A DNA stretch of 40,443 nt from Pseudomonadota bacterium (GTDB lineage Bacteria; Pseudomonadota; Gammaproteobacteria; Burkholderiales; Burkholderiaceae_C): positions 1-40,443 of the forward strand of contig JAKBBP010000025.1 of assembly GCA_021808445.1 (NCBI GenBank), read 5' to 3'. Below the pieces are notes generated by a model. That model was not told the origin of the DNA. It saw nothing but the letters and a program-made list of their open reading frames with translations, and ran no database searches. Both the position numbers and the translations under genes were made by a program. Shown piece by piece: positions 20,326 to 37,573 of the stretch (its first letter is position 1; the number at the start of each line of letters is the position of its first letter).

Positions 20326-21896
20326 GCGCGGGTCTCCGGGGACGTGGCGCGACGGCGCAGCCAGGCCTGCTCGCGCAGCGCGGGGCTGACGCGGTAGCGT
20401 TCGCCGCGATAGTGGGCGTCCAGTGCATCGAGCATCGCCGCGGGGTCGGGCGCGCCGAGCTGGTGCCAGAGGCTGAGCCACTCGAAGGGGCCGGCGGGGT
20501 AGTTGACCCCGAGTTTCATCGCATGGTCGGCACCGTCGGCCGAGCACACGCCCTGGTGCACCGCGTCGGCCGCTTCGTTGATGAGCATGGCCACCGTGCG
20601 CGCGACCACCAGGCCGGGGATGTCGCGCAGGCGCAGCGGCTGCCAGCCCAGCAGGTGCAGCCAGCGCGGCGCCTGTTGCTGCCAGGTCTCACTGGCATCG
20701 GCGCCGGCGGCCCAGGCCAGAGCCAGACCGTTGTCGTCGCGCAGCGGCAGGTCGAACACCGCCACGTCGCCTCCGAGTTCGGTGGCGCAGCGCCCGTCGC
20801 TCAGGCGCAGGCTGGCGCCGTCGACTCGCAGGCCGCACCATGCGGACTGCGGATCGACTTCGTATTCGCGCCCGGCCGCGCACAGCGCAGCGCCGAGCCG
20901 GTCGGCCAGCGCGCCGCGCCCGGCCACCACCAGGCGCGTGGCCGCGTCGGGCTCGAGCAGGTCGGCGGGCGCGGGGCACGCGCTGGGCTGCCCGGCGCCG
21001 TCGGCATAGTCGTAGAAGCCACGCCCGGTCTTGCGGCCGAGCAGCCCGCCGTCGACCAGTTCGCGCTGCACCAGCGAGGGCTGGAAGCGCTTGTCGAAGA
21101 AGTTCGCCTCGTACACCGCCTGGGTCACCGCGAAATTGGTGTCGTGGCCGATCAGGTCCATCAGCTCGCACGGGCCCATGCGAAAGCCGGCGGCGCGCAG
21201 GCAGGCGTCGAGGGTCTCGGGGGCCGCCGCCTGCTCCTGCAGCAGCGCCAGGGTCTCGGCGTAATAGGGGCGGGCGATGCGGTTGACGATGAATCCCGGA
21301 GTGGAGCGCGCGTGCACCGCCGTCTTGCCCCACGAGCCTGCCAGCTCGAACACTTGCCGGGCCACCGCGGGGTCGCTGCGCAGGCCGCTGACCACCTCCA
21401 CCAGCTTCATCAGCGGAACCGGGTTGAAAAAGTGCATGCCGACCAGGCGCTCGGGATGGCGCATGTCGCGCGCCAGCGCGGTGATGGACAGCGAGGAGGT
21501 GTTGCTCGCCAGCACGCAATCGGGGGCGACCAGCGCCTCCAGGCGCGCCAGCAGCTCGCGCTTGACGTCCAGGCGCTCGACGATGGCCTCGACCACCAGG
21601 CCGCAGTCGGCCGCCTGTTCCAGCTGCTCGACGGCGTCGATGCGTGCCAGCGCCTCGGCGGCGGCGGCCGCCGGCAGGCGGCCCTTGGCCACCAGGGTGT
21701 CGAAGGTGGCGGCGAGCCTGTCGCGCGCCTGGAGCGCGGCGCCCTCGCGGGCGTCGAACAGCGCCACGCGCTGCCCGGCCTGCGCGGCCACCTGGGCGAT
21801 GCCCGCCCCCATGATTCCCGCGCCGACCACCAGCACGCGCGCGCTGCGCAATGCCGTGTCCCGGCGCGCGCCCTGCTCGGCGCCCGTGGTGCTCAT
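20322..21896 (-). CDS. paaH: 3-hydroxyacyl-CoA dehydrogenase, PaaH type (probable 3-hydroxyadipyl-CoA dehydrogenase)
   Basis: A 524-aa NAD-dependent dehydrogenase, predicted to oxidise 3-hydroxyadipyl-CoA to 3-oxoadipyl-CoA in the lower benzoyl-CoA/phenylacetyl-CoA route. The N-terminal Rossmann domain has VVGAGIMGAGIAQ. SNTSS and GMHFFNPVPLMKLVEVV supply the catalytic Asn and His. Two C-terminal 3HCDH domains follow, the second with GLVVARTVAMLINEAADA and GVNYPAGPFEW, as in PaaH. It is slightly longer than E. coli PaaH. The ATG shares one base with the boxA stop codon (TGATG), and the 3' end overlaps the next start codon, so it is translated as part of the box operon. The substrate is inferred from context. 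Confidence 0.88.
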   Translation of the reverse strand: MSTTGAEQGARRDTALRSARVLVVGAGIMGAGIAQVAAQAGQRVALFDAREGAALQARDRLAATFDTLVAKGRLPAAAAAEALARIDAVEQLEQAADCGLVVEAIVERLDVKRELLARLEALVAPDCVLASNTSSLSITALARDMRHPERLVGMHFFNPVPLMKLVEVVSGLRSDPAVARQVFELAGSWGKTAVHARSTPGFIVNRIARPYYAETLALLQEQAAAPETLDACLRAAGFRMGPCELMDLIGHDTNFAVTQAVYEANFFDKRFQPSLVQRELVDGGLLGRKTGRGFYDYADGAGQPSACPAPADLLEPDAATRLVVAGRGALADRLGAALCAAGREYEVDPQSAWCGLRVDGASLRLSDGRCATELGGDVAVFDLPLRDDNGLALAWAAGADASETWQQQAPRWLHLLGWQPLRLRDIPGLVVARTVAMLINEAADAVHQGVCSADGADHAMKLGVNYPAGPFEWLSLWHQLGAPDPAAMLDALDAHYRGERYRVSPALREQAWLRRRATSPETRA

Positions 21897-23164
21897 CAAT
21901 AGGTCTCCAGATGCAGTCGGCCCTGTTCCTTCCACGCGGCTGCCGTGGTTTCCCAATCCAGCCCCGCCTGGGCGGCGACGTCGCGCAGCGCGAGCAGCAC
22001 GCCGTCCTCCATGGCCTTGAGGCCGCAGACGTAGATGTGGGTATTGTCGTCGCCCAGCAATTCCCCCAGGTCGGCGGCGCGCTCGCGCATCAGGTCCTGC
22101 ACGTAGCGCCGCGGCTGGCCGGGGGTGCGGGAGAACGCGAGGTGGATGTCGATGAAGTCCTTGGGCAGGTTCTGCAGCGGTCCGAAGTAGGGCAGCTCGG
22201 CCTGGGTGCGTGCGCCGAAGAACAGCATCAGGCGCCCGCCGTCGAATTTGCCCGAGCGCCGCAGGCGCCGGCGCCATTCGGTCATCGCGCGCATCGGCGC
22301 GCTGCCGGTGCCGGTGCAGATCATCACGATGTTCGAGCGCGGATGGTTGGGCATCAGGAAACTGGCACCGAAGGGTCCGGTGACCTCGACCTTGTCGCCG
22401 ACCTGGAGGTCGCACATGTAGTTCGAGGCCACGCCGCGCACGGGACGTCCCTGATGGTCCTGCAGCACGCGCTTGATGGTCAGCGACAGGTTGTTGTAGC
22501 CGGCTCGCTCGCCGTTGCGCGGACTGGCCACCGAGTACTGGCGCGGATGGTGCGCCCGGCCGTCACCGTCCGCGCCAGGCGGGATGATGCCGATGGACTG
22601 GCCCTCCAGCACCGGAAAGGGCATGGCCCCGAAGTCCAGCACGATGTGGTGGGTGTCGTACTCGCGTCCGACCTCGGTGACCCGCACGTTGCCGGTGACG
22701 GTGGCGGTCACCGACTTGCGCGCGGACCTCGGGCCGTAGAGATTGGTGTAGGCGTGGGCCGCCGACCACGGCGGAACCACGGAGCCGTAGCGTGCGGCGC
22801 GGAACTCGGCCTCCGCGCCCGGCGCCGGTGTGTCGTCGCGCGCCGGCTGGGGCTGCACGGGCGCGGGATCGGCGGCCGGCAGCTCGCGCAGGTCGCCCTG
22901 CGCCGGCAGCTCGTCCCACAGCAGTTGCTCGGCCAGCGGATAGGCGGTGGCCCGCGGCACGTCGCGCCAGTTGTCGATGGCGCCGGTGGGGCAGGGCGGC
23001 ACGCAGGCCATGCAGAAATTGCATTTGTCGGCGTCGACCACGTAGTTGCGGCTGTCGTGGGTCACGGCGCCCACCGGGCAGGTGGCTTCGCAGGTGTTGC
23101 AGCGAATGCAGATCTCGGGGTCGATCAGGTGCTGGTGCAGGATCGCGGTGTCGGCCATGTCCAT
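21896..23164 (-). CDS. boxA: BoxA, reductase component of benzoyl-CoA 2,3-epoxidase
   Basis: A 422-aa iron-sulfur flavoprotein that passes electrons from NADPH to BoxB for epoxidation of benzoyl-CoA. Two 4Fe-4S clusters are visible at the N-terminus: C19, C22, C25, C29 ([12 protein letters not shown]) and C48, C51, C54, C58 ([12 protein letters not shown]). A Pro/Ala-rich linker (about 90-120) leads to a ferredoxin-NADP reductase domain with FAD motif RQYS (208-211) and NADP motif GTGSAPMR (285-292). The C-terminus ([15 protein letters not shown]) matches the FNR family. GGAG stands 6 bases before the first ATG; a second ATG two codons on is also possible. It lies 49 bp after boxB in the same operon. 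Confidence 0.95.
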
Positions 23165-23213: not shown

Positions 23214-24641
<1,428 letters not shown>

Positions 24642-24659: not shown

Positions 24660-26318
24660 TTATACGCGATTGAAGTCGAACGCGGCCTTTTCACCCTTGC
24701 CGTACACCTTGAGCGCGCCCTTGTCGCCCACCGCGTTGGGGCGCTGGAAAATCCAGTTCTGCCACGCCGTCAGGCGCCCGAACACACGGGTGAACAGGTT
24801 TTCGGGGCCGTTGAAGCGCAGGTTGGCTTCCATGCCGGTCAGCGCATCGGGGGACATCGCCGCGCGTTCCTCGATGGCGATGCGGATCTCGTCGTCCCAG
24901 TCGATGTCGTCGGGGTTGCTGGTAACCAGGCCCAGCGCGAAGGCCTCGTCGGCGTCCAGCGCCTGCCCGGCCTTCGCGCGCACCGCTTCCATCGCAGGGG
25001 CCTCGGCGTAGAAGCGACGCTCCAGGCGGCTTTGTCCGGTGACCATCGGGTACAGCCCGAAATTGGCCTCCCCCACGGTGATGCGCGGAGTGCGTTGCGG
25101 CGCGTCCGGCAGGGCCAGGTGGTAGATGCGGTCGCAGGCCAGCGCCGGCTCGAGCAGCGTGCCGGTGAAGCACGAACCCTCGTCGGCCAGCGCGAACAGG
25201 CTGCGCGACGAGACGTCGATGCGGGCGAAGCCGCGGCGCAGCATGCCGATGGTCTCGCGCACCAGCCAGTGCTCGCGATGGGCCAGGAGCAGGGCGTCGA
25301 GTTCGGCCACCCTGGCGCTGTCGCCACGGGTCTTGATCAGCCAGGTGCCGATGTCCAGCTCGTTGGTGCGCATCGACAGGATGGCATCGTCGAGCTCGCG
25401 CGCCAGGCGCAGCGCGTACCAGTCGGCACCCAGGGCCTCGATGCCGGCGGCGTCGCGCGGCTGCTCGCCTTGCGGGGCTTGGAGGGTGAAGGTGGCGACG
25501 CGACGCGAGCGGTCGATGTCGACGCGCACCGTCGAATACACCAGCGCGTCGGCCTCGATGCTGCGCTGCAGGGGAGTCAATGCCACGCCGCGGGCGTCCT
25601 GCGGGCGGTCGCTCTGCGCGGCCAGCTGCAGTGCACGCTCCTGCACGGCCTGCGCGAACACGGCGGGCTTGGCGATGTCGTCGACCAGGCGCCAGTCCTT
25701 GGCCTTCTGGCCGCGCACGCCTTCGGCGGTGGTGCAGAAGATGTCGGCCAGGTCGTGGCGCACGTGGCGCTTGTCGGTCACGCGGGTGAGCCCACCGGTG
25801 CCGGGCAGCACGCCGAGCAGCGGAACCTCCGGCAGGCTGACCGCGCTGGAGCGGTCGTCGACCAGCAGGATCTGGTCGCAGGCCAGCGCGAGCTCGTAGC
25901 CGCCGCCGGCGCAGGCGCCGTTGACCGCGGCGAGAAACTTGAGGCCGCTGTTGCGCGACGAGTCTTCCATGCCGTTGCGGGTCTCGTTGGTGAACTTGCA
26001 GAAGTTCACCTTCCAGGCATGGCTGGAAAGACCCAGCATGAAGATGTTCGCGCCCGAACAGAACACCCGGTCCTTGAGGCTGGTCAGGACCACCGTGCGC
26101 ACCTCGGGGTGCTCGAAGCGGATGCGATTGAGCGCGTCGTTGAGCTCGATGTCCACGCCGAGGTCGTAACTGTTGAGCTTGAGCTTGTAGCCGGGGCGCA
26201 GCCCGGCGTCTTCGTCGAAATCGGCGGCCAGCGTGGCGATCTGGCCCTTGAAGCTCAGCTTCCAGTGCTTGTAGCGCGAGGGGTCGGTCTGGTAGTCGAC
26301 GCGGGGCGAATCGTTCAC
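24660..26318 (-). CDS. boxC: BoxC, 2,3-epoxybenzoyl-CoA dihydrolase (ring-cleaving)
   Basis: A 552-aa crotonase-superfamily enzyme that hydrolytically opens the ring of 2,3-epoxybenzoyl-CoA to 3,4-dehydroadipyl-CoA semialdehyde plus formate. Family features include DRVFCSGANIFMLG, NGACAGGGYELALACDQ (with the crotonase Glu), SLPEVPLLGVLPGTGGLTRVTDKR, and the C-terminal RFNGPENLFTRVFGRL and NWIFQRPNA. The start is GTG at 26318, 7 bases after AGGAG, giving the usual BoxC length. In-frame ATGs further upstream overlap the promoter and TGCA sites and are rejected. It is the first gene of the box operon, expressed from the divergent control region shared with benzoate-CoA ligase. Confidence 0.95.
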   Translation of the reverse strand: MNDSPRVDYQTDPSRYKHWKLSFKGQIATLAADFDEDAGLRPGYKLKLNSYDLGVDIELNDALNRIRFEHPEVRTVVLTSLKDRVFCSGANIFMLGLSSHAWKVNFCKFTNETRNGMEDSSRNSGLKFLAAVNGACAGGGYELALACDQILLVDDRSSAVSLPEVPLLGVLPGTGGLTRVTDKRHVRHDLADIFCTTAEGVRGQKAKDWRLVDDIAKPAVFAQAVQERALQLAAQSDRPQDARGVALTPLQRSIEADALVYSTVRVDIDRSRRVATFTLQAPQGEQPRDAAGIEALGADWYALRLARELDDAILSMRTNELDIGTWLIKTRGDSARVAELDALLLAHREHWLVRETIGMLRRGFARIDVSSRSLFALADEGSCFTGTLLEPALACDRIYHLALPDAPQRTPRITVGEANFGLYPMVTGQSRLERRFYAEAPAMEAVRAKAGQALDADEAFALGLVTSNPDDIDWDDEIRIAIEERAAMSPDALTGMEANLRFNGPENLFTRVFGRLTAWQNWIFQRPNAVGDKGALKVYGKGEKAAFDFNRV

Positions 26319-26336
26319 GACGGTGCTCCTGGAGTG

Positions 26337-26350
26337 TGCAGCAAAGTGCA
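26337..26350. promoter_or_regulatory. Candidate BoxR operator, TGCA-N6-TGCA (box side)
   Basis: TGCA-GCAAAG-TGCA lies immediately upstream of the boxC SD and roughly 16-30 bases downstream of the predicted box transcription start. There a bound repressor would block elongation. The match to the BoxR operator layout is from memory of the Azoarcus work. Confidence 0.6.
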
Positions 26351-26372
26351 TGTTTGGGGCCGATGGAGAGGC

Positions 26373-26401
26373 AGCATAATGCATGCGAGCCGGTTTCGCA
26401 A
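26373..26401 (-). promoter_or_regulatory. Predicted promoter of the box operon
   Basis: On the minus strand, TTGCGA (26401-26396) and TATGCT (26378-26373) are separated by exactly 17 bp, a good sigma-70 layout. A TGCA element at 26380-26383 falls inside the spacer, next to the -10. Predicted start is near 26366. Confidence 0.6.
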
Positions 26402-26521
26402 GCCCTCCCGCTGCACAGATTTGCGCTGCGAAGTCTACGTCAAGCTGCGATGCTGGGGGTTGGACCCCCCTGCAGGGTGCAGCATGGGAGGCGTGAGCGG
26501 GTTTTCCATGCAATATAGTGC

Positions 26522-26550
26522 TTGACAGTCCGAAGTCCAGAACTTACAGT
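26522..26550 (+). promoter_or_regulatory. Predicted promoter of benzoate-CoA ligase
   Basis: A perfect -35 TTGACA (26522-26527) is followed after 17 bp by TACAGT (26545-26550, 4 of 6 matches). A TGCA lies just upstream (26509-26512), and the palindrome TGCATGCA (26568-26575) lies at about +11 to +18, well placed for repression. Confidence 0.7.
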
Positions 26551-26567
26551 GGCTTTACGCACAATAC

Positions 26568-26575
26568 TGCATGCA
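26568..26575. promoter_or_regulatory. Candidate BoxR site TGCATGCA (ligase side)
   Basis: Two abutting TGCA tetramers just downstream of the predicted transcription start of the ligase gene. They mirror the TGCA-N6-TGCA pair in the early transcribed region on the box side. Confidence 0.5.
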
Positions 26576-26725
26576 ACCTCCGTTGCGCATGCTCTGCGGC
26601 GCGACGCCGAGCGGGTGTCGCCATGTGGTGGACTGCCAGGCCCGGGTGAGCGGGCACCGAATCCACGCTTTTCCAGCGGGGCCGCGAGCTTCGGCGCCCG
26701 ACGACGACTTCAGGAGACAAGGACC

Positions 26726-28327
26726 GTGCAAAGTGCCATTCCCGCGCCGCCCTGGGAGCAGGACACGAGCGGTGCGCTGCGATTCAACTTCGCGCAGCAC
26801 CTGTTCGAGCGCAATGCGCGTCGCCCCGACAAGGCGGCCTTCATCGACGATCATGGCCGCCTGAGCTACGCCGAACTCGAACGGCGTTCGCGGCGCATGG
26901 CCGCCGCGCTGCGCGCCATCGGGCTGCGCCGCGAGGAGCGCGTGCTCATGGTCATGCAGGACTGCAACCACTGGCCGGTGGCCTTTCTCGGCGCCATGTA
27001 CGCGGGCATCGTTCCGGTGCCGGTGAACACCCTGCTGACGGCCGACGACTACGCCTACATGCTCGAGCATTCGCGTGCGCAGGCCCTGGTGGTGTCGGGC
27101 GCGGTGCTGCCCGCGCTGGGCGCCGCGATGACCCGCGCCGACCACGAGGTGCGCCAGGTCGTCGTGTCGCATCCGCAGGCGCCGCTGCACGGGTCCGAGA
27201 CCGAGTTCGACGCCTTCGTCGATGCGCACGCGCCGATGGCGCGCCCGGCCGCAACAGGTCCGGACGACCCGGGGTTCTGGCTGTACTCCTCCGGTTCCAC
27301 CGGTCGGCCCAAGGGCGCGGTGCACTCGCATGCGAATCCCTACTGGACCATCGAGCTGTTCGGCAGTGGGGTTCTCGGCATGCGCGAAAGCGATGTGTGT
27401 TTTTCGGCGGCCAAGCTGTTCTTCGCCTATGGCCTGGGCAACGCCCTGACCTTCCCGCTGGGCGTGGGCGCCAGCGTGGTGCTGATGGCCGAGCGTCCGA
27501 CCCCGCAGGCGGTGTTCCGGCGCCTGAAGGGAGAGGTGGGCGGCGTTCGGCCGACCCTGTTCTTCGGCGCGCCCACCGGGTACTCGGGCATGCTGGCGCA
27601 CCCCGAGCTGCCGGCGCGCGAGCAGGTGGCGCTGCGCCTGGCATCCTCGGCCGGCGAGGCCCTGCCGGCCGATATCGGCGAGCGCTTCAAGGCCCACTTC
27701 GGTGCCGACATCGTGGACGGCATCGGTTCCACCGAGATGCTGCATGTGTTCCTGTCCAATCGTCCTGACCACATTCGCTACGGCACCACCGGCTGGCCGG
27801 TGCCCGGCTATGACATCGAGCTGCGCGGCGACGATGGCGGCCCGGTGGCCGACGGCGAGCCGGGGGATTTGTACATCCACGGCCCGTCGAGCGCGCTGAT
27901 GTACTGGGGCAACCGCGCCAAGTCGCGCGAGACCTTCCAGGGCGGCTGGACCAAGAGCGGCGACAAGTACGTGCGCAACGCCGACGGCACCTACACGTAC
28001 TCGGGGCGCAGCGACGACATGCTGAAGGTCAGCGGCATCTACGTGTCGCCCTTCGAGGTCGAGGCCACGCTGGTGCAACATCCCGCGGTGCTGGAGGCGG
28101 CGGTGATCGGCGTGCCCGACGAGGAAGGCCTGACCAAGACCAAGGCCTTCGTGGTGTGCAAGGATGGATCCAGCGTCGGGGCCGACGAGCTCAAGGCCTT
28201 CGTGAAGGAGCGCCTGGCGCCGTACAAGTACCCTCGCATCATCGAGTTCACCGACGAGCTTCCCAAGACCGCCACCGGCAAGATCCAGCGCTTCAAGCTG
28301 CGTCTGCGCGAGGCAGGCGCCGAGTGA
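26726..28327 (+). CDS. bclA: Benzoate-CoA ligase
   Basis: A 533-aa acyl-adenylate-forming enzyme that activates benzoate to benzoyl-CoA with ATP and CoA, the entry step of the box pathway. The AMP-binding P-loop is YSSGSTGRPKG (187-197). The hinge region is SGRSDDMLKVSGIYVSPFEVE, and the catalytic Lys519 lies in KTATGKIQRFK. Length, FFAYGLGNA and STEMLHVFLSN match benzoate-CoA ligases more closely than acetyl- or cinnamoyl-CoA ligases. The start is GTG (VQSAIPAPPWE), 9 bases after AGGAG. The frame can be extended to a TTG at 26522, but that TTG is the -35 box. Divergent from boxC, with shared control. Related substrates such as fluorobenzoates or 2-aminobenzoate are possible. Confidence 0.93.
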   Translation: MQSAIPAPPWEQDTSGALRFNFAQHLFERNARRPDKAAFIDDHGRLSYAELERRSRRMAAALRAIGLRREERVLMVMQDCNHWPVAFLGAMYAGIVPVPVNTLLTADDYAYMLEHSRAQALVVSGAVLPALGAAMTRADHEVRQVVVSHPQAPLHGSETEFDAFVDAHAPMARPAATGPDDPGFWLYSSGSTGRPKGAVHSHANPYWTIELFGSGVLGMRESDVCFSAAKLFFAYGLGNALTFPLGVGASVVLMAERPTPQAVFRRLKGEVGGVRPTLFFGAPTGYSGMLAHPELPAREQVALRLASSAGEALPADIGERFKAHFGADIVDGIGSTEMLHVFLSNRPDHIRYGTTGWPVPGYDIELRGDDGGPVADGEPGDLYIHGPSSALMYWGNRAKSRETFQGGWTKSGDKYVRNADGTYTYSGRSDDMLKVSGIYVSPFEVEATLVQHPAVLEAAVIGVPDEEGLTKTKAFVVCKDGSSVGADELKAFVKERLAPYKYPRIIEFTDELPKTATGKIQRFKLRLREAGAE

Positions 28328-30826: not shown

Positions 30827-31717
30827 TCACCAGGGTGGCAGCGGGGCCTCCAGGCGCCGGCCGTCGTAGCCCCGCACCTGGCCGAAATAGTCGGCTCCGG
30901 CGTTCCATTCCTCGCTGGCGCGACGCAGTTCCTGCGGCGTGCGGGCCACGAAATTCCACCACATGCGCATGTCCTCGCCGAAGGGCGTGCCACCGATGAG
31001 CAGGCAGCGCGAGGCCGAGCCGGCGGCCACGCGCAGTTCGCTGCGGCCAGCGCCCAGGTACAGCAGGCTGCCGATGCCCAGGGCCTGGCCGTCGAAACAG
31101 GCCCCGTGCTCGAGCATCATCAGCGCGTATTCGAAATCGGCGCGCAGCGGAAGCACCGCCTCGACGGGGCCCTCGCTCAGCAGCTCCACGCCGAGCAGCG
31201 GGCTGTGCACGGCCGCCGGCGAGCGCTCTCCCAGGAACTCGCCGATCATCACGCTGACCCGCAGGCCCTGGTGATGGATCACCGGCAGATCCTGCACATG
31301 CTGGAAGCCGGGCTCGCACCCGCGCTGGGCCTCGGGCAGGGCGATCCACAACTGCGCGCCGTGCAGCGAAGGCGAGCGCTGCGCGGGCGACTCCTCGGAG
31401 TGGGAGATGCCGCGCCCGGCGGTCATCAGGTTGAGCTGGCCGGGCCGAATGGCCTGCAGCGAGCCCAGGCTGTCGCGGTGCAGCACTTCGCCCTGCACCA
31501 GCCAGGTGACGGTCTGCAGCCCGATGTGAGGGTGGGGTCCCACGCGCATGCCCAGGCCCTGGGACACGTCGGCCGGCCCGAAATGATCCAGGAAGCACCA
31601 GGCGCCGACCATGCGGCGGTGGCGGTGGGGCAGGGCGCGGGCGATGCGCATGCCCTCGCCCAGCACGGCTTCGTGGGCGGGGAGAATCTGCGGCAGGGAG
31701 TCGTCGGGCTGGTCCAT
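30827..31717 (-). CDS. Pirin family protein
   Basis: A 296-aa bicupin. The metal-binding residues of the N-terminal cupin are all present by alignment with human pirin: H62 and H64 (GPHPHIGLQTVTW), H106 and E108 (GISHSEES). The C-terminal cupin has EHGACFDGQALGIGSLLYLG and MWWNFVARTPQEL. Bacterial pirins include quercetin 2,3-dioxygenases and proteins that bind metabolic enzymes; the activity here is not determined. It starts at MDQPDDSLPQ; a longer frame would run into the divergent LysR gene's start. It is the first gene of a two-gene unit with the PcaC-like gene and diverges from the LysR regulator across 82 bp, which makes LysR its likely regulator. Confidence 0.9.
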   Translation of the reverse strand: MDQPDDSLPQILPAHEAVLGEGMRIARALPHRHRRMVGAWCFLDHFGPADVSQGLGMRVGPHPHIGLQTVTWLVQGEVLHRDSLGSLQAIRPGQLNLMTAGRGISHSEESPAQRSPSLHGAQLWIALPEAQRGCEPGFQHVQDLPVIHHQGLRVSVMIGEFLGERSPAAVHSPLLGVELLSEGPVEAVLPLRADFEYALMMLEHGACFDGQALGIGSLLYLGAGRSELRVAAGSASRCLLIGGTPFGEDMRMWWNFVARTPQELRRASEEWNAGADYFGQVRGYDGRRLEAPLPPW

Positions 31718-31799
31718 CGATCCATTGTCGCTCGATTCGGCGCGCGCGCAGTGGCTACCATCGCGGAGTTCCCCGCAGCCGCGTCCCGCATCGCGCACC

Positions 31800-32711
31800 A
31801 TGGTCGAGCTCCGCAACATCGAAACCTTCTACTGGGTCGCGACCCTCGGGGGTTTTCGCGCCGCCGCGGAAAAGCTGCACGCCACCCAGCCCGCCATCTC
31901 CCAGCGTATCCACGCGCTGGAGGAGGCGCTGGACGTGCGCCTGTTCGATCGCGACGCGCGCGGCGTGGCGCTCACCGCCAAGGGCCAGGAACTGCTGCCC
32001 TACGCGGAGCGCATGCTGCGCACCCGCCTGGAGCTGCAGCAGGCGGCACGCAGCGAAAGCGTGATCCGCGGCACCCTGCGCCTGGGGGTGTCGGAGACCA
32101 TCGTGCACACCTGGCTGCCGCGCCTGATGGAGCAGTTGCACGAGGCCTACCCGGCGCTGCTCATGGACGTGCAGGTCGACACCTCGACCTTGCTGAAGGA
32201 GCAGATCAACAGCCACCAGCTGGACCTGGCCTTCCTGCTCGGGCCGATGACCGAGCCGCATGTGTACAACCTGGAGCTCTGCGAGTACCCGCTGCGCTGG
32301 CTGGCCAGCCCGAAGCTTCCCGTGGGGCGCTCGCCGGTGCCGCTGCGCCGCCTGGGGGACTGGCCGGTGATCACCTACCCAGCCTCCACCGACCCGCACC
32401 GCGAGGTGCGCAAGATGCTGCACGCCACCGGCGTGGAGCCGCTGCGCATGTACGGCAGCGCTGCGCTGAGCGTGATCGTGCGCATGGCGCAGGATGCCAT
32501 CGGCACCGCGGTGATCGCCCCCATCTCCGCGCACCGCGCGCTGCAGGACGGCAGCCTGGTGATGCTCGACGTGGCGGGCCCCGCGCTGCCCTCGCTGCGC
32601 TACACCGCCTGCTGGCGACACGGGGCCACCGACCTGGTGCCCCGGGTGGTGGCGCAGGCGGCGCTGCGGGTCGCGCGAGAAGACGCGCTTTTGCATCAGG
32701 GCAAATACTGA
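31800..32711 (+). CDS. LysR-family transcriptional regulator
   Basis: A 303-aa LysR-type regulator. The N-terminal winged helix (1-60) has the classic FRAAAEKLHATQPAISQRIHALEEALDVRLFDR, followed by the linker helix. The effector domain (about 90-295) starts at GTLRLGVSETIVHTWLPRL. It diverges from pirin/PcaC and is followed on its own strand, after 88 bp, by the DUF1445 and transporter genes, so it may control either or both. The start ATG lies at the end of a GC-rich gap with no clear SD. The effector is unknown; an amino-acid-derived lactam would fit the downstream genes. Confidence 0.88.
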   Translation: MVELRNIETFYWVATLGGFRAAAEKLHATQPAISQRIHALEEALDVRLFDRDARGVALTAKGQELLPYAERMLRTRLELQQAARSESVIRGTLRLGVSETIVHTWLPRLMEQLHEAYPALLMDVQVDTSTLLKEQINSHQLDLAFLLGPMTEPHVYNLELCEYPLRWLASPKLPVGRSPVPLRRLGDWPVITYPASTDPHREVRKMLHATGVEPLRMYGSAALSVIVRMAQDAIGTAVIAPISAHRALQDGSLVMLDVAGPALPSLRYTACWRHGATDLVPRVVAQAALRVAREDALLHQGKY

Positions 32712-33618: not shown

Positions 33619-33688
33619 ACCCCGAGGCCGCATCGGCGGCCCCGGGTCTTGTCGAAGCACGCAGTCCCAGACCACACCAGGAGGAATG

Positions 33689-34945
33689 ATGAAGCGCCGC
33701 GAACTACTCAGTGTCCTTGCCGCAGCAGGCCTCACGACGGCCTCGATCGTCCCCGCGCGAGCCGCGGGCAAGCCGGTGCGCATCGGCGCCATCTATCCCC
33801 TGACCGGCGCGCTGGCGTCGACCGGACAGGACATCAAGAGCGCCATCGAACTGGCGGTGGACATCGTCAACAAGCCCCACCCCGAGCTCAAGACTCTTCC
33901 GCTGGCGGCTGGTTCGGGGCTGCCGCGCCTGGGTGGTGCCATGCTGGAGGTGGTGTTCTCCGACTCGCAGGGCAACCCGGCCACGGGCCTGGCCGACGCG
34001 CAGCGCCTGATCGACGAGCAGGGCGTGGTGGCGCTGACGGGGGCGTACCAGTCCAACGTCACCGAGACCTGCAGCCGCGTCGCCGAACAACGCGGAATCC
34101 CCTATCTCAACGGCGAATCCAGCAGTCCCTCGCTGACCGAGCGCGGCTACAAGTGGTTCTTCCGCACCACGCCCAACGACGAGACCTTCATCCAGAACAT
34201 GATGGACTTCCTGGGCACCATCCGACAGGTGCCCGCGCAGCGTATCGCGGTGGTCTACGAGAACACGGACTTCGGGGTGAACACCTACAAGGCGGTGCAG
34301 AAGTTCGCGCCCCGGTTCAAGCGCCAGGTGGTGGCCGGCATCGCCTACACGGCGGGTTCGCCCTCCCTGAACGCCGAGGTGGCCAAGCTGGCCGCGGCCA
34401 AGCCCGACGTGGCGATCTTCGCGTCCTACACCTCGGACGCGCTGCTGTTCGTGCGCACCATGCGCGAGATGAAATATGCGCCGCCGGTGCTGCTGGCCAA
34501 CGACGCCGGTTTCATCGACTCGGCCTTCGTCAAGCAGGTCAGCGCGCAGACCCAGGGCATCCTGACCCGCGACGTGTGGGCCACCGACATCGCGAAGACC
34601 AACCCGATGCTCAACCACATCAACGCCCTGTACCGCGCCCGCGCCGGCAAGGACCTGAACGGGAACAACGCGCGCTCGATGGCCGGTGTGCTGGTGCTGG
34701 CCGACGCCATCAACCGCGCCGGTTCCACCGAGCCGGAGGCGATCCGCAAGGCGCTGATCGCCACCGACCTGGGCTACGAGCAGGTGGCCATGCCCTGGCC
34801 GGGGGTGAAGTTCGACGCGCAGGGCCAGAATGAGCGCGGCGCCGGGCTGATCCTGCAGATGGAGGGCCCGGGCTACCAGACGGTGTGGCCGACGCAGTTC
34901 AAGCACGACAAGGCGCTTCCGAAGCTTCCCTTCGCCTGGAGCTGA
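33689..34945 (+). CDS. livK: ABC transporter substrate-binding protein, LivK type
   Basis: A 418-aa periplasmic binding protein of the branched-chain amino acid/amide (type I fold) family. The N-terminus MKRRELLSVLAAAG carries twin arginines before a hydrophobic stretch, a weak Tat-like signal, with cleavage near PARAAG. The mature domain begins VRIGAIYPLTGALASTGQD, a family hallmark. The binding cleft segments ALTGAYQSNVT and GESSSPSLTERG are visible. Two ATGs are adjacent; the second (33689) is better spaced from AGGAGG. It heads livKHMGF and a 5-oxoprolinase-type gene, so the ligand may be 5-oxoproline or a related lactam. Ligand specificity cannot be read directly. Confidence 0.9.
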   Translation: MKRRELLSVLAAAGLTTASIVPARAAGKPVRIGAIYPLTGALASTGQDIKSAIELAVDIVNKPHPELKTLPLAAGSGLPRLGGAMLEVVFSDSQGNPATGLADAQRLIDEQGVVALTGAYQSNVTETCSRVAEQRGIPYLNGESSSPSLTERGYKWFFRTTPNDETFIQNMMDFLGTIRQVPAQRIAVVYENTDFGVNTYKAVQKFAPRFKRQVVAGIAYTAGSPSLNAEVAKLAAAKPDVAIFASYTSDALLFVRTMREMKYAPPVLLANDAGFIDSAFVKQVSAQTQGILTRDVWATDIAKTNPMLNHINALYRARAGKDLNGNNARSMAGVLVLADAINRAGSTEPEAIRKALIATDLGYEQVAMPWPGVKFDAQGQNERGAGLILQMEGPGYQTVWPTQFKHDKALPKLPFAWS

Positions 34946-34958
34946 GGCGGCAAGACTG

Positions 34959-34999
34959 CCCGGCGGGCATGCGCGGCGCCGCCGCGCCGCCCCGCCGGG
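34959..34999 (+). terminator. Nested stem-loop between livK and livH
   Basis: An outer 9-bp stem (34959-34967 with 34991-34999) encloses an inner 7-bp stem (34971-34977 with 34981-34987). The structure starts 13 bp after the livK stop codon, has no T-run and ends 25 bp before livH. It is likely a partial terminator or mRNA stabiliser that raises livK level over the membrane genes. Confidence 0.55.
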
Positions 35000-35024
35000 T
35001 GAACCCTGGGGGAGGAAGAACACC

Positions 35025-35876
35025 ATGCTCGAGGCGCTGTATTCCGGCTTGCTCGACGGACTGTTGTACGCCGCGGTCGCACTGGGACTGGCGCTGATCT
35101 GGGGCATCACCGACGTGATCAACTTCGCGCACGGTGAATTCCTGATGCTGGGCATGTACGCAGCCTACTGGCTGTTCACGCTGGCGCATCTGGATCCGCT
35201 GCTGTCGGCGCCGCTGGTGGCGGTGGCCATGGCCTTTTTCGGCTTCGGGGTGTACGCGCTGATCATCCGGCGCCTGCGCAGGGGGCCGCCGACCGCGGTG
35301 ATCCTGGCCACCTTCGGGCTGGGCCTGGTGATGCGCCAGGCGGCGTCGATCGCCTTCACGCCCAATTACCGCAACCTGTCGCACACGGCGCTCTCGGGCA
35401 GCGTGACCGTCACCGGGGTGCACCTGGGGCGCCCGCAGTTCGTCACCGCGCTGATCGCGCTGGCGCTGGTGGGCGTGGTGTTCTGGCTGGTGTACCGCAC
35501 CCGCTGGGGGCAGGCGCTGCAGGCGGTGGCCGAGGACCGGGAAGTGGCCGCCTTCGTGGGCATCTCGCCGCAGCGCGTGGACGCGCAGGTCTGGATGCTC
35601 AGCAGCGCCGTGGTGGGCCTGGTGGGGGCGCTGCTGACCAGTTTTTTCTACATCTTTCCTTCGGTGGGCGCGGTGTTCGGCCTGCTGGCCTTCGTGGCGG
35701 TGTGCATGGGCGGCTTCGGCTCCCTGCTGGGGGCCGCGCTGGCCGGGTTGCTGATCGGACTGATCGAGGCCTTCACGGGCTACCTGATCGAGCCGGCGCT
35801 GAAGACCCTGGGGATTTTCGTGTTGTTCGTGGCCGTGCTGTGGTGGCGTCCGCGCGGCCTGTTCGGACGGTGGTGA
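35025..35876 (+). CDS. livH: ABC transporter permease, LivH type
   Basis: A 283-aa integral membrane permease of the branched-chain amino acid/amide uptake family, with about eight predicted helices. Typical sequences are ALGLALIWGITDVINFAHGEFLMLGMYAAYW near the N-terminus and the cytoplasmic coupling loop RTRWGQALQAVAEDREVAAFVGI. FVAVCMGGFGSLLGAALAGLLIGLIE lies near the C-terminus. The start has a GGGGGAGGA SD. The stop codon is one base before the livM start, so the two are co-translated. It forms the channel with LivM and is powered by LivG/LivF. Confidence 0.93.
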   Translation: MLEALYSGLLDGLLYAAVALGLALIWGITDVINFAHGEFLMLGMYAAYWLFTLAHLDPLLSAPLVAVAMAFFGFGVYALIIRRLRRGPPTAVILATFGLGLVMRQAASIAFTPNYRNLSHTALSGSVTVTGVHLGRPQFVTALIALALVGVVFWLVYRTRWGQALQAVAEDREVAAFVGISPQRVDAQVWMLSSAVVGLVGALLTSFFYIFPSVGAVFGLLAFVAVCMGGFGSLLGAALAGLLIGLIEAFTGYLIEPALKTLGIFVLFVAVLWWRPRGLFGRW

Positions 35877-35877
35877 C

Positions 35878-36870
35878 ATGCATCCTGATCCTTCTCGAGA
35901 CCCGGCCGGCGCCCGCTGGCGCGATCGCCTGCCGCTGCTGCTGGCCGCCGCGCTGGCGCTGCTGATGGCCCTGGCGCCGGTGTTCACGCACGACGGCTTC
36001 ATCCTGCAGGTCCTGTTCAAGACCCTGCTGTTCGGCGCCCTGGGCGCGTCGTGGAGCCTGGTGGGCGGGTTCCTCGGGCGCATTTCCTTCGGGCACGGCT
36101 TTTTTCTCGGCGTCGGCGCGTACACGACGGTGCTGCTGATGCTGGACCTGCATGTCTCGCCGCTGCTGGGCATCCCGCTGGGCGGGCTGGCGGCCGCGGC
36201 CGTGGCCTGGCTGATCGCGGCTCCCACGCTGCGCCTGTCGGGGCATTATTTCGCCATGGTCACCATCGGCCTGCTGCAGATCGGACTGCTGGGATTCACC
36301 AACCTGCCTTGGGCGGGCGGGGCCAGCGGGCTGTCGGTGCCCATCGGCAATCATCCCTGGATGCTGCTGTTCCGCAATCGCATGCCTTACTACCTGATCG
36401 CCGTGGCGCTGGCGCTGCTGAGCTTCGCCGTGGTGTATTTCAGCGCGCGCTCGCGCCTGGGCTACTACTGGCGCGCCATCAGCGGCGACGAGGCGGCCGC
36501 GCGCAGCCTGGGGGTGCCGGCGCAGCGCTGCAAGCTGCTGGGCTTCGCGCTGTCGGCGGCGCTGACGGGGGTGTGGGGCGGTTTCTTCGCCATCTACGTG
36601 GGATTCATCGACCCCGACTCCATGTTCAGCCTGTCGACCTCGGTGGAGATCGTGCTGGTGGCCATCCTGGGCGGCGCCGGATCCCTGTACGGACCCTGGC
36701 TGGGCGCGGCCCTGCTGATTCCGCTGGGGGAGATCACTCGCGCCGCCTGGGGCGGCTCCAGCGGTGGCGCCGACGTGCTGGTGTACGGGCTGGTGATCGT
36801 GGCGGTCACGATGTTCATCCCCGGTGGACTGACCACCTTGCGGAGGCGCCATGGCCTTGCTCGAGGTTGA
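35878..36870 (+). CDS. livM: ABC transporter permease, LivM type
   Basis: A 330-aa membrane permease, partner of LivH. After a short polar N-terminus, about ten helices are predicted. Family marks are WSLVGGFLGRISFGHGFFLGVGAYTT, LRLSGHYFAMVTIG and the coupling helix GYYWRAISGDEAAARSLGVP. VAILGGAGSLYGPWLGAA follows near the end. It begins one base after livH and its last 20 bp overlap livG, so translation of the operon is tightly coupled. The substrate is that of LivK and is not evident from the permease. Confidence 0.93.
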   Translation: MHPDPSRDPAGARWRDRLPLLLAAALALLMALAPVFTHDGFILQVLFKTLLFGALGASWSLVGGFLGRISFGHGFFLGVGAYTTVLLMLDLHVSPLLGIPLGGLAAAAVAWLIAAPTLRLSGHYFAMVTIGLLQIGLLGFTNLPWAGGASGLSVPIGNHPWMLLFRNRMPYYLIAVALALLSFAVVYFSARSRLGYYWRAISGDEAAARSLGVPAQRCKLLGFALSAALTGVWGGFFAIYVGFIDPDSMFSLSTSVEIVLVAILGGAGSLYGPWLGAALLIPLGEITRAAWGGSSGGADVLVYGLVIVAVTMFIPGGLTTLRRRHGLARG

Positions 36871-37573
36871 GTCGCTGAGCAAGCGCTTCGGCGGGCTGAC
36901 GGCCAATCGCGACGTCAGCTTCGCGGTGGAGCAGGGCGAGCTGGTGGCCATCATCGGCCCCAACGGCGCGGGCAAGAGCACGCTGTTCAACAGCCTGGCC
37001 TGCAGCTACGCGCCCACCTCCGGCTCCATTCGCTTCGGCGGGCGTTCCATCGTCGGCATGAGCCCGGAGCAGGTGGCCGGGCTGGGGCTGGCGCGCAGTT
37101 TCCAGATTCCGCGCAGCTTCGGGGACATGACGGTGCTGGAGAACACCATGGTGGGGGCGCTGCTGCGCCATCGACGGGTCGCCGACGCGCGGCGCCATGC
37201 CGAGCAGGTATTGCGCAGCGTGGGCCTGCAAGGGCGCGCGCAGGAGCGGGCGGCGGCGCTCAACGTGGCGGGGCAGAAGCGCGTGGAACTGGCACGCGCG
37301 CTGGCCACGGCGCCGCGCATGCTGCTGCTGGACGAGGTGGCCGGTGGGCTCAACCCCGGCGAGGCGATCGAGCTGGCCGAGATCCTGCGCGAGATCCACG
37401 CGCAGGGGGTGACCCTGCTGATCGTCGAACATGTGCTGGAGGTGGTCATGCGTCTGGCGCAGCGCGTGCTGGTGCTGAATTTCGGGCAGCTGATCGCCCA
37501 GGGTTCGCCGCAGGAGGTCGTGCGCGACCCCACGGTGATCGAGGCCTACCTGGGGAGCAAGCACCGTGTCTGA
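36851..37573 (+). CDS. livG: ABC transporter ATP-binding protein, LivG type
   Basis: A 240-aa cytoplasmic ATPase of the uptake system. Walker A is GPNGAGKST and Walker B is MLLLDEVAGGL. The switch His is in VEHVLEVV. The signature segment reads NVAGQKRVELARAL in place of LSGGQ, in keeping with the divergent LivG signatures. LARSFQIPRSFGDMTVLENTMVG is a typical Q-loop region. The ATG lies inside the end of livM (20-bp overlap), and the gene's 3' end overlaps the livF start by 8 bp. It works as a heterodimer with LivF. Confidence 0.94.
   Translation: MALLEVESLSKRFGGLTANRDVSFAVEQGELVAIIGPNGAGKSTLFNSLACSYAPTSGSIRFGGRSIVGMSPEQVAGLGLARSFQIPRSFGDMTVLENTMVGALLRHRRVADARRHAEQVLRSVGLQGRAQERAAALNVAGQKRVELARALATAPRMLLLDEVAGGLNPGEAIELAEILREIHAQGVTLLIVEHVLEVVMRLAQRVLVLNFGQLIAQGSPQEVVRDPTVIEAYLGSKHRV

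Follow-up and report, generated by a model that had tools for sequence, protein, structure and literature searches.

Analysis of the window (the whole stretch of DNA analysed, 40,443 nt) revealed the genes boxC, boxB and boxA on the minus strand and bclA on the plus strand, all scoring above their NCBIfam cut-offs. The two divergent units are separated by a gap of 407 bp (26319-26725). The sequence-only reading had placed two divergent promoters in this gap, and both were found exactly where it placed them (Table 1). The bclA promoter is supported by a -10 footprint in 36 aligned relatives: 17 bp on, a bclA-type -10 had T as its first base in 30, A as its second in 31 and T as its last in 30 of the 36 alignable loci, which had been picked by the fused operator/-35 described below, so that their TTGAC is given and is not a result. 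The boxC promoter is supported by L012, the closest relative among the best 80 of at least 591 boxC loci, which has TTGCCA-N17-TATGCT at the matching place.

Table 1. Genes, promoters and putative operators at the boxCBA/bclA locus (window coordinates).
Feature	Position	Strand	Basis and remarks
boxA, benzoyl-CoA 2,3-epoxidase subunit	21896..23164	-	TIGR03224, 721.7 bits (cut-off 459.2)
boxB, benzoyl-CoA 2,3-epoxidase subunit	23214..24641	-	TIGR03225, 910 bits (cut-off 499.1)
boxC, 2,3-epoxybenzoyl-CoA dihydrolase	24660..26318	-	TIGR03222, 942.8 bits (cut-off 712.3); GTG start at 26318
Operator O4, ATGCACTTTGCTGCAC (boxC strand)	26336..26351	-	boxC leader; 9/10 half-site positions; 2 mismatches; holds the TGCA-N6-TGCA pair; 33 bp from O3
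Operator O3, ATGCATTATGCTGCCT (boxC strand)	26369..26384	-	1 mismatch; includes the boxC -10 TATGCT; counterpart in L012
boxC promoter, TTGCGA-N17-TATGCT	26373..26401	-	8/12 by own count; unlisted by the promoter scanner; -35 poor
Stretch with three TGCA (26412, 26471, 26478)	26412..26481		outside the good operators; no counterpart in L012
Operator O1, ATGCAATATAGTGCTT	26508..26523	+	0 mismatches to ATGCANTATNNTGCWT; two-base overlap with the bclA -35
bclA promoter, TTGACA-N17-TACAGT	26522..26550	+	promoter scan, 10/12
Operator O2, ACGCACAATACTGCAT	26557..26572	+	1 mismatch (minus strand); 49 bp from O1; over the expected transcription start
bclA, benzoate-CoA ligase family	26726..28327	+	TIGR02262, 809.2 bits (cut-off 375.25); GTG start at 26726

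The tetramer TGCA starts at nine positions in the gap (26337, 26347, 26380, 26412, 26471, 26478, 26509, 26568, and 26572). The count of nine within 239 bp given by the sequence-only reading is exact, and no denser 239-bp stretch was found in the window. None of 200 first-order Markov sequences of window length reached nine TGCA (largest count, 8; mean of the maxima, 5.8). The accompanying estimate of about one TGCA by chance agrees with the average rate across the window (195 in 40,443 bp), but the contrast was overstated: shuffles of the gap that kept its dinucleotides had a mean of 3.5 TGCA, and nine were present in 10 of 2000 such shuffles. The excess is therefore about 2.6-fold and not nine-fold. 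The TGCA-N6-TGCA pair (26337-26350), the TGCATGCA (26568-26575) and the TGCA in the spacer of the boxC promoter (26380), to which the same reading had drawn attention, were each confirmed in the sequence.

The sequence unit that counts here is a palindrome of 16 bp, ATGCA-N6-TGCAT, of which the gap holds four copies, two per promoter, all within 237 bp. Scoring of the ten outer (half-site) positions gave 9/10 for all four (26336, 26369, 26508, and 26557), and no palindrome of at least 9/10 was found elsewhere in the window. One or more such palindromes occurred in 20 of 1000 shuffled gaps, and two in none. Both TGCA are exact in one of the four palindromes. In O1, the final two bases double as the opening TT of the -35 TTGACA, and the second TGCA is replaced by TGCT, so that this half was missed by counts of TGCA alone. 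O3 and O4 fit the operator pattern less well than O1. The TGCA array as a whole did not hold up as the operator set: five of the nine TGCA lie inside operator palindromes, and those between the two promoters (26412, 26471, and 26478) have no counterpart in L012. According to PMC6449761, the main BoxR motif is ATGCACTATAGTGCAT, TGCA-N6-TGCA, and its sites are almost always multiple; those of Betaproteobacteria are spaced mainly by 3 to 5 helical turns (Suvorova and Gelfand 2019, PMC6449761).

The pattern ATGCANTATNNTGCWT was composed with knowledge of the motif from the gap, from relatives and from PMC6449761, which accounts for part of its good fit here but not for its confinement to two loci. 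Scanning of the genome with at most one mismatch revealed five places, three in the boxC/bclA gap and two in a gap between boxR and pnbB. With at most two mismatches, 12 and 11 matches were obtained, compared with 2 and 1 when the pattern was reversed. The two-mismatch level comprises O4 and ten other places; no aromatic-catabolism genes were recognised near seven of these ten, judged from mechanical reading frames; the other three are C2:38867, C106:52745 and C106:110062, the last of which lies within the pnbB frame. A scan for strict TGCA-N6-TGCA gave 35 places versus 12 for the reversed motif and was too loose to define a regulon.

The search for BoxR-type genes turned up one in the genome, located on contig C106; the count covers the sequence of a 115-contig draft that is 92% complete. 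The deduced protein has HTH_3 and SKI (shikimate kinase) domains and scored 447.7 bits (cut-off 204) with NF006015, a model whose name refers to anaerobic benzoate catabolism and which makes no distinction between BoxR and BzdR. It is named BoxR because relatives of the C106 protein sit in box clusters. The stretch SERHLANLE in its HTH domain, kept to 96 to 100% per position in a BoxR alignment of 78 rows, is taken for the recognition helix. SKI also matched at two further places in the genome, in frames of 194 and 171 amino acids. No BoxR or SKI match was found in the window, so boxR is not beside boxCBA, a position that is usual though not required. On C106, a PF16155 gene (PnbB, 177.6 bits) is divergent from boxR, and the gap between the two contains a sequence identical to O1, TTGACA, and then an O2, 49 bp on. 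Together, boxR and pnbB make up another divergon of the BoxR type, built on the same module of operators and promoter (L008:7897-10272). An enoyl-CoA hydratase-like frame, below the cut-off of every model shown, lies just downstream of boxR.

The position of boxR was compared in the best 80 of at least 591 boxC loci, a sample whose frequencies describe close relatives only and whose gap limits are approximate, the gene ends being taken from tblastn alignments. The boxR gene lies directly upstream of boxC in 69 of these best 80 loci; in two (L026 and L091), a contig end interrupts the locus near boxC, and nine have another arrangement. In L052 and L066, boxR is farther upstream at the same locus; in L012, L050, and L054, it is on a separate contig; for L015, L037, L039, and L042, the search yielded nothing closer than BoxR-like matches of 46 to 53%. 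The boxR-boxC gaps contained an operator of at least 8/10 in 69/69 cases and two in 61/69 (best 80 of at least 591 loci), and equal-length stretches within boxC, which are coding DNA and so differ in composition, contained one in 0/69. On the other side of boxR, an operator fused to a -35 was present in 42 of 66 relatives from the best 80 of at least 591 loci and absent, as searched, from 24; the 66 are the 69 loci minus three with less than 250 bp upstream of boxR. Within the same best 80 of at least 591, two operators were 47 to 51 bp apart in 42 of 69 relatives, 15 had other spacings, and 12 had no pair. An operator overlapping the boxC -35 was counted in 16/69 relatives with a stricter and in 35/69 with a looser criterion (again from the best 80 of at least 591); none is recognisable in the gap studied here. 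The sequence-only reading had named a lack of TGCA conservation among close relatives as a result that would refute it. The outcome was mixed, with conserved operators but no conservation of the extra TGCA.

The left half of the gap resembles the boxR-boxC promoter of the relatives, and the right half resembles their promoter across boxR. The simplest reading would be that boxR left the cluster, that the two promoters came to lie side by side, and that boxR kept or took with it a copy of the divergent module. The promoter scan also listed a promoter-like sequence, TGGACT-N16-TATATT, at 26539-26512 on the minus strand, overlapping O1. It could be a leftover boxR promoter that now faces boxC; among 36 relatives, no consistent -35 partner was found in a comparison whose hexamers were set one base off. 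In the sister genome G100, BoxC is 89% identical and BoxR is 92% identical over the 238 residues present. The G100 boxR is likewise on another contig, which shows collinearity with about 4.4 kb of C106 and ends inside boxR. Because quick trees of BoxR and of BoxC (34/74 and 33/78 inner branches left open) each pair this genome with G100, they speak for the two having descended together and disfavour mis-binning.

The suggestion of the sequence-only reading that one BoxR-type repressor serves both transcripts is well supported by the single BoxR gene found, the restriction of the operator pattern at up to one mismatch to two loci, and the recurrence in relatives of operators at both promoters. 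As far as sequence comparison goes, BoxR control of the gap is well supported, and we assign a probability of roughly 0.88 to the reading that the gap consists of two BoxR-repressed promoters back to back, with BoxR acting in trans from the relocated boxR. With BoxR on O1 at the -35 and on O2 at the start site, the core bclA promoter would be flanked by repressor on both sides, and BoxR bound to O3 at the -10 and to O4 in the leader would likewise block boxC transcription. Benzoyl-CoA, to which the BoxR of Azoarcus responds and which BclA makes, would act as inducer and release the repressor. It is also the inducer of BzdR (PMC6678401). Since the boxR/pnbB locus has its own copy of O1, promoter and O2, BoxR would reach the boxC/bclA gap in trans from that locus and is probably also the regulator of boxR itself and of pnbB.

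Looping across 150 to 230 bp, which the sequence-only reading had considered, did not hold up, the distance between the promoter-proximal operators not being conserved. O3 and O1 are separated, centre to centre, by 139 bp in this genome, by 76 bp in L012, and by about 1 kb in genomes that have boxR between the promoters. This variation and the absence of the TGCA trio from L012 indicate that a loop joining the promoters is not conserved; wrapping of DNA within each single promoter is possible. The same distances, and the lack of L012 counterparts of the middle three TGCA, argue against the gap being one nucleoprotein unit in which BoxR on all sites, including the extra TGCA, loops or wraps the DNA and shuts both promoters jointly. 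Such a unit would be in line with the four operators inside 237 bp and with the close relative BzdR, which loops DNA around four dimers at PN as described in PMC6678401, but we regard it as improbable. It is equally doubtful that, after the departure of boxR, the promoters came near enough for BoxR bound to the two of them to operate as a single switch; if true, this mode would be less open to genomes with boxR between the promoters.

A different regulator, for example, a LysR-family protein encoded within 31611-32711, could control the gap, with the TGCA being incidental. The LysR-family gene is about 5 kb from the gap, but the palindromes agree with the BoxR motif of PMC6449761 and recur at the boxR promoter and in relatives, which makes this alternative very unlikely. 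Scarcely credible is a functionless TGCA cluster produced by composition: the mean of the shuffled gaps and the few of them that reach nine TGCA lend it something, but no Markov window reached nine, no shuffled gap had two palindromes, and the operators recur in relatives.

The reading of two BoxR-repressed promoters places the gap, with high confidence as far as sequence comparison goes, among BoxR-type control regions, a kind already published; the unusual part is the distant boxR with a copied promoter module. Divergent boxCBA/bclA units, multiple TGCA-N6-TGCA palindromes and a regulon that includes a pfam16155 (PnbB) gene are shared with the BoxR regulons of Betaproteobacteria (PMC6449761). 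In these published regulons, boxR is almost always in one arm, whereas here boxR and pnbB are at another locus. The two promoters thus face each other across 407 bp, while most sampled relatives (best 80 of at least 591) have boxR between them. With the Azoarcus BzdR/PN system, the locus has in common a regulator of HTH and shikimate kinase-like architecture (PMC6449761) and TGCA palindromes including TGCA-N6-TGCA (PMC6678401); the Azoarcus system differs in its anaerobic bzd operon and in its three operator regions at one promoter (PMC6678401). The passages covered by the literature search contain no account of a boxR relocated along with a copied box promoter, which is no proof of absence. 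The operator set, confined to two genome loci at up to one mismatch, is compact and directly testable, and the recurring promoter layout places one operator on the -35 and another on the start site. If boxR moved together with a copy of the promoter module, this shows how a local regulator can turn into a distant one while its targets retain their sites.

At the sister locus L012, the closest relative in the best 80 of at least 591 loci, a frame between bclA and boxC is taken from reading alone to be boxD; so read, boxD is the frame that comes first on the divergent side of boxC in G100. A search of the window with the L012 frame gave no match, so that no boxD was found in this cluster, and no close boxD was found in the 92% complete genome. 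The best match there, 44% identical on contig C50, is a longer frame adjoining a thiolase-like frame and is presumably PaaZ. The cluster is in this respect unlike the published BoxR regulons (PMC6449761). Most BoxR regulons include putative benzoate ABC transporters according to the same paper (PMC6449761). A putative ABC transporter cluster lies at 33686-37573 of the window, its binding protein being below the model cut-off and its other parts recognised by eye; no operator of at least 9/10 was found at it. In another genome, G107 (L054), bclA is directly divergent from boxC, and boxR is elsewhere, beside other genes. Just upstream of this relocated boxR, one 9/10 operator was observed (L151, 6303-6318).
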